The position numbers and the translations under genes are program-made. A stretch of DNA of 39,181 nt from Roseobacter sinensis (GTDB taxonomy: Bacteria > Pseudomonadota > Alphaproteobacteria > Rhodobacterales > Rhodobacteraceae), in the NCBI RefSeq assembly GCF_025755255.1, contig NZ_JALIEB010000002.1, positions 1 through 39,181 on the forward strand. The letters are read 5' to 3'. Within the stretch, counting starts at the first letter, position 1. Every line of letters begins with the position of its first letter. The notes beneath the pieces are model-generated. The model saw nothing but the letters and a program-made list of their open reading frames with translations. It did not search any database and was not told the origin of the DNA. Of the stretch, positions 32,999 to 35,438 are shown one piece after another.

Positions 32999-34180
32999 TC
33001 AGGCCACGGCCAGCGCCTTCAGGATGTCATTGATCAGATCGTCCTCATCCTCGATGCCCGCGCTGATCCGCACAAGCCCATCGGTGATGCCAAGCGCATC
33101 CTTCTGGTCCTGCGGCAGGCGCTGATGGGTGGTGGTTGCGGGATGCGTCATGATCGTCTTGGCATCGCCGAGGTTGTTCGAGATCACACCGACCTCGATG
33201 GCATTCAGGAACCGGAACGCGGCCTCCTTCCCGCCCGCAAGGTCGATCGACAGAACCGTGCCGCCCTGCCCCATCTGGCGCTGTACGAGCCCGTGCTGCG
33301 GGTGGGTTTCGTGACCGGGATAGATCACACGCGAGAGTTTCTCGTGCTGATGTAGCGCCGCGGCAATGGCGGTGGCGTTGCCGGTCTGTGCCCGCACGCG
33401 CAGATCGAGCGTCTCCAGCCCCTTGAGCATCACCCAAGCCGTAAACGGGCTCATCGAGCCGCCGGTGTGCTTCATGTAGGGCTCGACGGTCTTGCGAATG
33501 AACGCCTGCGTGCCGAGGATCACGCCGCCAAGCGCGCGGCCCTGCCCGTCGATATGCTTGGTGGCGGAATAGATCACCACATCAGCGCCCTGTGCCAGTG
33601 CCTTCGACCAGACAGGCGTTGCAAAAACGTTGTCCACCAGCACCTTGGCACCCTTGGCATGGGCCAAAGCGGCGACACCGGCGATATCGACAACCTGCAA
33701 GGTCGGGTTCGACAGCGATTCGAAGAACACCGCCGTGGTATCGTCACGGATGGCTGCGGCCCAGGCGTCGAGATCGGTGCCGTCGACAAAGGTGACCTCC
33801 ACGCCGAAGCGGGTCAGCACCTCTTCGAGCACATAGAGGCAAGAGCCGAAGAGCGCGCGGGCCGAAACCACGTGATCGCCCGCTTTCAACATCGACATCA
33901 AGGCTCCGGACACCGCCGCCATGCCCGAGGCGGTGGCAAAGGCATCCTCGGCCCCTTCAAGCGCCGCGATCCGCTCTTCGAACATCGCGACCGTGGGGTT
34001 GCCATATCGTGCGTAGATGAATTCGTCGGGTCCGGCTTCGATGAAGCGGGCCTCGGCGGCCTCGGCAGTCTCATAGACGAACCCTTGCGTGAGGAAAATC
34101 GCCTCGGAGACCTCGCCGTATTGGCTGCGGCGGGTTCCGCTGTGGATCGCGCGTGTCCGCGGCTTCAGATCAGCTGTCAT
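32999..34180 (-). CDS. metZ: O-succinylhomoserine sulfhydrylase
   Basis: 393 residues, Cys/Met-metabolism PLP family. IYARYGNPTVAMFEERIAALEGA binds cofactor phosphate, KVLVDNVFATPVWSKAL carries the PLP Asp, and the Schiff-base Lys lies in YSATKHIDGQGR. The sequence fits MetZ (homocysteine from O-succinylhomoserine and sulfide) better than cystathionine synthase or lyase, which is also favoured by the SAM-II riboswitch in its leader. The ATG at 34180 overlaps the end of a 27-codon leader ORF by 11 bases. An in-frame extension to 34234 would lie inside the leader terminator and is rejected. Confidence 0.94.
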   Translation of the reverse strand: MTADLKPRTRAIHSGTRRSQYGEVSEAIFLTQGFVYETAEAAEARFIEAGPDEFIYARYGNPTVAMFEERIAALEGAEDAFATASGMAAVSGALMSMLKAGDHVVSARALFGSCLYVLEEVLTRFGVEVTFVDGTDLDAWAAAIRDDTTAVFFESLSNPTLQVVDIAGVAALAHAKGAKVLVDNVFATPVWSKALAQGADVVIYSATKHIDGQGRALGGVILGTQAFIRKTVEPYMKHTGGSMSPFTAWVMLKGLETLDLRVRAQTGNATAIAAALHQHEKLSRVIYPGHETHPQHGLVQRQMGQGGTVLSIDLAGGKEAAFRFLNAIEVGVISNNLGDAKTIMTHPATTTHQRLPQDQKDALGITDGLVRISAGIEDEDDLINDILKALAVA

Positions 34181-34253
34181 TCTTCTCTTCTTCTCCAGCC
34201 CCGACGGGCACAAAAAAACCCCAGACGCGGTCAACGCGACGGGGTGTCCTCAT
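34170..34253 (-). CDS. Leader peptide ORF between SAM-II aptamer and metZ
   Basis: 27 residues beginning MRTPRRVDRVWGFF and ending EEEKNDS. Its Shine-Dalgarno, AAAAGG (34265-34260), is the 3' end of the SAM-II aptamer, six bases before the ATG. Its codons run straight through the leader terminator; the T run encodes Phe-Phe. Its TGA lies inside metZ, overlapping the metZ start by 11 bases, which suggests coupled translation. There is no run of Met codons, so this is not classical attenuation by codon stalling. The ORF may be fortuitous, but its placement relative to three regulatory elements argues for use. Confidence 0.5.
   Translation of the reverse strand: MRTPRRVDRVWGFFVPVGAGEEEKNDS
34212..34245 (-). 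terminator. Intrinsic terminator in the metZ leader
   Basis: On the minus strand ACCCC (34245-34241) pairs with GGGGT (34222-34218), enclosing an inner CGCG/CGCG stem, and is followed by seven T (34218-34212). It lies between the riboswitch and metZ, so it must be bypassed for metZ expression. Confidence 0.75.
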
Positions 34254-34254
34254 C

Positions 34255-34313
34255 GGTGACCTTTTAGCGGTGAGTTTAACGTGGCCCGCAATCCGGTAAC
34301 AAATCGCCACGTC
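34255..34313 (-). promoter_or_regulatory. SAM-II riboswitch
   Basis: The minus strand reads CGTGGC-GATTTGTTACCGGATTGC-GG-GCCACG-TTAAA...GCTAAAAGG. The P1 stem CGTGGC/GCCACG (34311-34306 with 34285-34280), the conserved GATTT and CCGGATTGC of loop 1, GTTAAA after P1, and the 3' GCTAAAAGG match the SAM-II (metA) aptamer closely. The ACC of loop 1 and the 3' GGT give the pseudoknot that hides the AAAAGG ribosome site. SAM binding should repress the downstream Met biosynthesis gene. Confidence 0.9.
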
Positions 34314-34436: not shown

Positions 34437-35438
34437 ATGCCGTTGCTCAGGGTCAATGCGACAGAGGATGGGCTGCACAAACACGGATGTCGCTCTGAGG
34501 CTTTGCCGGAGATTGCCGAGCTGTCCGGCCAGACGCCCGGGCCCGCCATCGTCATGATCCACGGGTACAAATACGACCCCGCCGACATCGCGCATTGTCC
34601 GCACCGGAAACTGTTTGGCGCGAACGGCGCGGATTGGCCGCGCGCACTGGGGTTCGGTGCCGCCGCGGCGGACGAGGGCCTTGGCATCGCCTTCGGCTGG
34701 CATGCCCGAGGCCCGCTGAAGCAGGTGCACCGGCGCGCCAGTGCGCTCGGCCCTGCGCTCGCGGATGTGTTGCACGCCCTGAAAGCGGCAGATCCGCGCC
34801 GCCCGGTCCATCTGATCGCGCATTCCCTCGGATCGGAGATTGCCCTGGCCGCGCTCGCGCATCTTCCCGCCCGCGCCGTAGATCGCATGCTGCTGCTCAC
34901 CGGAGCAAGCTTTGCAACTGTCGCAGAACAGATGCTGGCAACGCCTGCCGGGCGCACCACGGAGGTGTTCAACGTCACAAGCCGCGAAAACGATCTGTTC
35001 GATCTGGCCTTTGAAACGCTGGTCGGCTTCGGGCACGGGGCGAACCGCGCCATCGGTCAGGGGATCAATCGACCGAACGTGGCGAACATCCAGCTCGACT
35101 GCGACCGCGTTCTGACCAGCCTTGCGCGGATGGGCGTCCGCGTTGCCTCAGCGGAGCGGCGTGTCTCCCATTGGTCGAGCTACACACGGCCCGGGATCAT
35201 GGCGTTCTACACCAGTCTGCTGCGCCAGCCGCAGTCCTTGAGCTTTCATGATCTCCACCGGGCGCTTCCCAGCAGCATGGCGCCGCGGTGGTCCCGTTTT
35301 GCCCTGACACCACTCGCGGCGGCTGTGTGCCGCGTGGCCTCCGACACAGCGGTGGTGGCCAAGGGCAAGATCCAACGCCGGGCCTCCGCTGTCATGGGTG
35401 ACACAGCGGATCAAAAGCGCAACGAACCGGCCTACTAA
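34437..35438 (+). CDS. Alpha/beta-hydrolase fold protein
   Basis: 333 residues. PAIVMIHGYKYDP supplies the oxyanion-type HG motif (about 40), and LIAHSLGSEIAL (about 125-135) is the nucleophile elbow, with Ala in place of the first Gly of GxSxG. A His is plausible near HWSSYTRPG (about 243). The likely activity is esterase or lipase; no signal peptide or membrane anchor, so cytosolic. The C-terminal about 80 residues (HDLHRALPSSMAPRWSRFAL on) are basic and unassigned. GAGAGGG precedes the ATG. It is divergent from metZ; its promoter must lie in the 183 bases next to the riboswitch. Confidence 0.8.
   Translation: MPLLRVNATEDGLHKHGCRSEALPEIAELSGQTPGPAIVMIHGYKYDPADIAHCPHRKLFGANGADWPRALGFGAAAADEGLGIAFGWHARGPLKQVHRRASALGPALADVLHALKAADPRRPVHLIAHSLGSEIALAALAHLPARAVDRMLLLTGASFATVAEQMLATPAGRTTEVFNVTSRENDLFDLAFETLVGFGHGANRAIGQGINRPNVANIQLDCDRVLTSLARMGVRVASAERRVSHWSSYTRPGIMAFYTSLLRQPQSLSFHDLHRALPSSMAPRWSRFALTPLAAAVCRVASDTAVVAKGKIQRRASAVMGDTADQKRNEPAY

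Follow-up and report, generated by a model that had tools for sequence, protein, structure and literature searches.

The metZ gene of Roseobacter sinensis is preceded by a SAM-II riboswitch, which very probably governs the gene by transcription attenuation carried out by RNA alone, with SAM as the OFF signal and with the exchange of a terminator for an antiterminator as the switching event. The DNA considered here, called the window, is the stretch of 39,181 nucleotides at positions 1 to 39,181 of contig NZ_JALIEB010000002.1 (assembly GCF_025755255.1), and all elements of the switch lie on its minus strand. Computation finds there a SAM-II aptamer, an intrinsic terminator, an antiterminator that is conserved and covaries among relatives, and a short leader ORF that is not conserved beyond the genus.

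To describe how the switch would operate, consider a nascent leader RNA at low SAM. The 3' strand of the P2 pseudoknot (AAAAGGUC) would then be free, and its GGUC would pair with the GACC of the would-be terminator loop. Together with an inner helix, the antiterminator formed in this way would enclose the sequence CCCC, the polymerase would continue into metZ, and metZ would be translated from its own SD. With SAM on the aptamer, P2 would lock GGU in place, the antiterminator would be blocked, the terminator would fold, and termination at the seven U would release a short leader RNA. The antiterminator would include the AUG past AAAAGG, and the leader ORF that starts with this AUG would be mostly incidental. 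A preliminary description of the same DNA, in whose account the antiterminator is overlooked, had proposed that without SAM the leader is translated and its ribosomes open the terminator and are handed on to metZ, and that SAM silences the leader and lets the terminator form.

The aptamer (34320-34244, minus strand) matches SAM_alpha, RF00521, over model positions 1-79 of 79 with 52.3 bits in cmscan (gathering threshold 36, E value 4.4e-9), and it is the sole RF00521 match reported for the assembly of the window, in a search whose filters can lose weak matches. Its P1 stem (34311-34306 with 34285-34280) is present in the folds. The P2 pseudoknot lies outside the scoring of the nested covariance model, and its loop strand (34297-34288) and 3' strand (34268-34259) were located visually with the RF00521 consensus as guide. 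On visual inspection, too, the loop ACCGGAUUGC can pair with the tail GCUAAAAGGU. Membership in the family suggests that the element binds SAM in this organism. It is placed upstream of a methionine-pathway gene, metZ (32999..34180, minus strand, start ATG at 34180), which is assigned as O-succinylhomoserine sulfhydrylase by TIGR01325 with 541 bits at a cut-off of 510, and whose protein has its nearest named relatives in Roseobacter (R. cerasinus and uncultured Roseobacter, at most 92% identity).

The intrinsic terminator (34212..34245, minus strand) consists of a stem at 34245-34218 with a folding energy of -14.4 kcal/mol and of seven U at 34218-34212, and it lies within the leader ORF. This hairpin is not among the elements listed by a simple terminator and consensus scan, and the isolated 48-nt stretch that holds it folds only slightly better than its shuffles (z -1.15). 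The leader ORF itself (34170..34253, minus strand) has 27 codons, with its ATG at 34253-34251. The sequence runs from AAAAGG through TCACCG to this ATG, a spacing of six bases, and the stop, which ends at 34170, falls 11 bases inside metZ, with which the leader AUG is out of frame. The preliminary description is borne out by the sequence as regards the aptamer, the ATG and its ORF, the terminator whose seven T fall within that ORF, and the position of the stop. The SD-like AAAAGG is conserved aptamer sequence.

The antiterminator hairpin (34229..34261, minus strand, -14.2 kcal/mol), identified by RNA folding and conservation, has two parts. In the outer pairing, GACC at 34232-34229, in the terminator loop, is the partner of the GGUC with which the P2 3' strand ends; in the inner helix of the window, CGAUG pairs with CGUCG, and the whole encloses the 5' arm of the terminator, CCCC. 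When the nascent RNA is left free, the antiterminator is present in the minimum free energy (MFE) structure at the tried 3' ends from 34228 to 34219, while at the last two 3' ends (34216 and 34213) the unconstrained MFE is a larger fold that breaks P1 and has neither antiterminator nor terminator. With P1 imposed and the P2 strands allowed no other partners, a constraint that only mimics the SAM state, the terminator is in the MFE structure at 3' ends 34219 to 34213. As far as sequence allows, the earlier claim that SAM leads to the terminator and turns metZ off is supported, and termination in this organism is probably SAM-dependent. In the predicted SAM-free fold the antiterminator pairs both the GG of the AAAAGG SD and the leader AUG, and with SAM the same GG is in P2. 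On this model, then, the SD would be sequestered with and without SAM.

The conservation of these elements was followed in 118 loci besides the window (30 from the genomes of 59 relatives, 39 of which have an RF00521 match; 80 named around metZ; 8 extra). After dropping L005 and L007 (no aptamer tail within 170 nt), L058 (5' end of metZ missing) and 10 duplicates, 106 distinct metZ leaders remain, in which the metZ starts and T tracts of the relatives were assigned by rule. Those with metZ more than 85% identical are taken as the Roseobacter leaders, 18 of which are distinct. A hairpin ending at the T tract is called in 102 of the 106 leaders, the window counted, and among these calls the T tract was wrongly picked by the script in at least five (L012, L017, L021, L049 and L055).

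The antiterminator is widespread among the same leaders. In a shuffle test in which the aptamer tail is kept fixed, the number of leaders whose fold is more stable than the shuffles (p ≤ 0.05) is 17 of 18 for Roseobacter, 61 of 74 for other leaders of Rhodobacteraceae type and 2 of 10 for distant ones. Pairing of GGUC is missing from the MFE structure in 4 of 102 leaders (in three of the four the T tract was wrongly set), and it is present in 31 of the 33 folded leaders that have no ATG. On average the fold is weaker in these leaders (mean z -1.79, n = 33) than in those with ATG (mean z -2.66, n = 69). The pairing of GGUC is unspecific when taken alone, as 76% of the shuffles pair at least three of its four bases. 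Since it is so common by chance, the evidence for the antiterminator comes from the stability of the fold and from two-sided changes in its helices.

The two-sided changes were counted in an alignment. Of the 106 leaders, 78 fitted the class motif, for which a metZ identity of 73% or more and a located T tract were required, and they gave 63 distinct stretches; 52 rows are left when 11 Roseobacter rows, which have the inner helix in another register, are left out. The commonest form outside Roseobacter is GGUCAGG-A-UGAAAG, followed by a short C-rich loop and then CUUUCGCUUGACC. In the 52 non-Roseobacter rows, 93.6% of the antiterminator cells are paired, and slid versions of the helices reach at most 60%. 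Six antiterminator pairs show two-sided changes, against a mean of 1.3 in shuffles, and none of 500 shuffles reaches six. Because a motif in the 3' strand of the outer helix was used to pick the rows, the conservation seen there comes partly from selection, while the inner helix played no part in the choice of rows. When RNAalifold is given the whole stretch with the terminator, it returns the outer antiterminator helix unprompted, and not the terminator, which as drawn has 85.5% of its cells paired in the alignment of relatives. Some leaders of Rhodobacteraceae type have other antiterminator sequences, e.g., with AAAGG pairing with CCUUU of the terminator loop in L088 and AGGUG with CACCU in L100.

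To see what is kept in this helix, consider the U of the leader AUG, which in the alignment forms a U-G pair (column 18-36). In 7 of the 52 rows, e.g., L025, a change from AUG to ACG turns this U-G into C-G. In L061 and L062 one base of the AUG is lost, and L054 has GAAAC:GUUUC in place of GAAAG:CUUUC. The U-G within the AUG occurs in 37 of 52 rows, against 44 of 52 for another wobble, the GU at column 13-38. These patterns are read as those of a conserved helix, of whose sequence the AUG would be a frequent by-product.

The leader ORF behaves differently from the helix when the relatives are compared. An ATG 3-13 bases 3' of the aptamer GG is present in 70 of the 106 leaders and absent in 36. 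Of the 70 frames set by such an ATG, 59 run open as far as the U tract, and the other two frames are open in 48 and 52, so that the leader ORF appears to exceed chance only weakly. The ends of the 70 ORFs are scattered: 11 stop within the terminator or ahead of it, 15 end before metZ, 11 end on the metZ start codon, three end 5-20 bases inside metZ and 19 end more than 20 bases inside it, while 11 are fused with metZ in frame. A stop 1-20 bases inside metZ occurs in 14 of 70, and in 11 of 70 the ORF is no longer than 1 to 7 codons. On a tree of metZ proteins that holds 105 of the 106 rows, the ATG shows a minimum of 15 changes of state and the complete leader ORF a minimum of 17; the tree is a quick one, with 34 of its 102 inner branches open and a long-branch warning among distant rows.

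Within Roseobacter the picture is another. Every one of its 18 distinct leaders retains the ATG and a frame that stays open past the U tract, although the ORFs end anywhere from 19 bases 5' of metZ to an in-frame fusion with it, and a metagenome locus that groups with the Roseobacter rows on the tree, L039, has no ATG. In the 17 of 18 leaders that were compared, there are four variable codons, three of them nonsynonymous, and the variable sites, which are few, are spread evenly over the codon positions. As a coding gene the leader ORF was therefore rejected, for want of any sign of selection on a peptide at these few sites. As a conserved regulator it was rejected on the counts of ATG and overlap, with 36 of 106 leaders without ATG and the ends scattered. 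The overlap with metZ is unconserved even inside Roseobacter. The leader ORF is judged incidental because neither its ATG nor the position of its stop is conserved beyond Roseobacter, and its translation probably has no role in the switch.

In the 11 leaders with in-frame fusion, the ATG next to the aptamer is in frame with metZ with no stop between them (L036, L038, L042, L044, L045, L049, L053, L064, L065, L072 and L097). This is the arrangement of AUG1 and AUG2 known from metA of Sinorhizobium meliloti, and automatic annotation could set the start of metZ too early in these leaders.

The translation of metZ in the proposed mechanism calls for an SD of its own. GGAG at 34193..34196 on the minus strand, 12 bases 5' of the metZ ATG, is by its sequence the likely one, and an SD-like motif is found 5' of metZ in 92 of the 106 distinct leaders, which argues against the earlier suggestion that the leader delivers ribosomes to metZ. 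Between the U tract and this SD lies a small hairpin (34198..34209, minus strand) with a folding energy of -8.0 kcal/mol and p 0.14 in the window. It folds with an energy of at most -5 kcal/mol in all 18 Roseobacter leaders and in 64 of 72 other leaders of Rhodobacteraceae type, and its stems are altered among relatives, e.g., to GUCCG..CGGAC in L118; it outdoes shuffles at p ≤ 0.05 in 28 of 96 leaders only. The hairpin may protect the mRNA or set the spacing of the SD.

No sigma-70-like promoter was returned by a consensus scan of the window, and a loose promoter pattern matches 34 of the 106 leaders, the window not among them, so that no promoter is claimed. By eye, a candidate that the scan does not contain is seen at 34346-34318 on the minus strand, just 5' of P1, with TTGACG, 17 bases and TAACGC; if it is a promoter, RNA would possibly begin at the aptamer. 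The divergent ORF at 34437-35438 on the plus strand (333 aa) has a weak NCBIfam match only, NF011457 (19 bits, where the cut-off is 307).

The chief objection to reading the AUG as a by-product of the helix is its constancy within Roseobacter, and ribosomes may be given a part in the switch in several ways. It is conceivable, though unlikely, that the AUG serves as a genuine start codon in those roseobacters which have retained it, that ribosomes initiating there would compete with SAM and with the antiterminator for GGUC, and that the switch would in this way read SAM and translation capacity together on a single short piece of RNA. Decidedly improbable is a mixed scheme, where RNA-only attenuation is the main gate, and where ribosomes at AAAAGG-AUG, in those leaders that keep the AUG, add to antitermination or use the place as a standby site for metZ, a role proposed for the metA leader of S. 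meliloti. Such a scheme would fit with the AUG being present in 69 of the 95 leaders with metZ at least 73% identical, and with the account of metA in Sinorhizobium meliloti, where translation 74 nt downstream is described as requiring the riboswitch SD (PMC9373788), but the U-G pair of the AUG is no better kept than the wobble outside it, metZ mostly has an SD-like motif of its own, and the antiterminator competes for the same SD. Very improbable, finally, is the original proposal that leader translation opens the terminator, for in spite of the good spacing of SD and ATG, an ORF that spans the terminator and overlaps metZ, the full retention of ATG and frame in Roseobacter and the excess of open ATG frames, the ATG is absent from 36 of the 106 leaders, the overlap of the ORF with metZ varies, the fold predicted without SAM has the GG of the SD and the AUG in pairs, and what is kept is an antiterminator that would work free of ribosomes.

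The proposal is nonetheless one of a known kind. In Mycobacterium tuberculosis, as described in abstracts (PMC11260477 / PMC12810186), the ppe2 uORF is translated and PPE2 depends on it, while that of pe20 shows high conservation and is connected with Rho-dependent termination. The leader ORF as first described would be of the same type, an aptamer-controlled uORF that affects or precedes a downstream gene. The existence of these riboswitch uORFs keeps the idea from being far-fetched in kind, but the present evidence does not favour it: judged against those abstracts, the uORF of the window differs in being unconserved beyond the genus and in having a terminator that is intrinsic.

The closest comparisons for the RNA-only switch are other SAM-II elements. 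In the text available from Corbino 2005 (PMC1273637), many of them are given putative intrinsic terminators and an OFF switch is suggested, and according to the corresponding part of Barrick and Breaker 2007 (PMC2258182), SAM-II with a regulatory terminator was already known. By these accounts the window is alike in aptamer family (RF00521), in the methionine gene, in the terminator between P2 and the gene and in the expected OFF logic. Nothing substantial differs; particular to the Roseobacter group of the window is the register-shifted inner helix with the AUG inside it.

Experimental work on the class is that of Scheuer 2022 (PMC9373788), whose authors state that effects of SAM-II on gene expression had been unstudied before. 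In the portion of that paper available, high SAM in S. meliloti raises the terminated metZ leader RNA and lowers metZ mRNA. The promoter activity and the RNA stability are reported to respond to SAM as well, and RNA levels are for this reason no proof of termination. The S. meliloti metZ leader, with its RZ sRNA, resembles the window in having SAM-II 5' of metZ and a predicted SAM-induced terminator; the species belongs to another bacterial order. The metA leader of S. meliloti, as the same text presents it, has the same layout as the window, i.e., an SD in the aptamer tail, an adjacent AUG, a terminator and the real start. Its AUG1 is idle in the native context, where the SD is needed, and becomes active once cut out, and the former observation speaks against use of the leader AUG in the window. 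The two leaders differ in that AUG1 of metA is in frame with AUG2 and its authors could predict no antiterminator driven by SAM-II, whereas the window has an AUG out of frame with metZ and a predicted antiterminator. Among the matches listed in a literature search that covered few subscription papers, none dealt with a roseobacter metZ leader in which an ORF behind a SAM-II aptamer is coupled to a terminator.

With the RNA-only switch preferred, a leader-peptide model that was tempting but weakly grounded gives way to one that is testable, in which the antiterminator helices are direct targets for mutation of a SAM-II transcriptional switch. The comparison of leaders suggests, further, that a start-like AUG beside a SAM-II aptamer can arise from antiterminator sequence, and this is relevant to the annotation of small ORFs.
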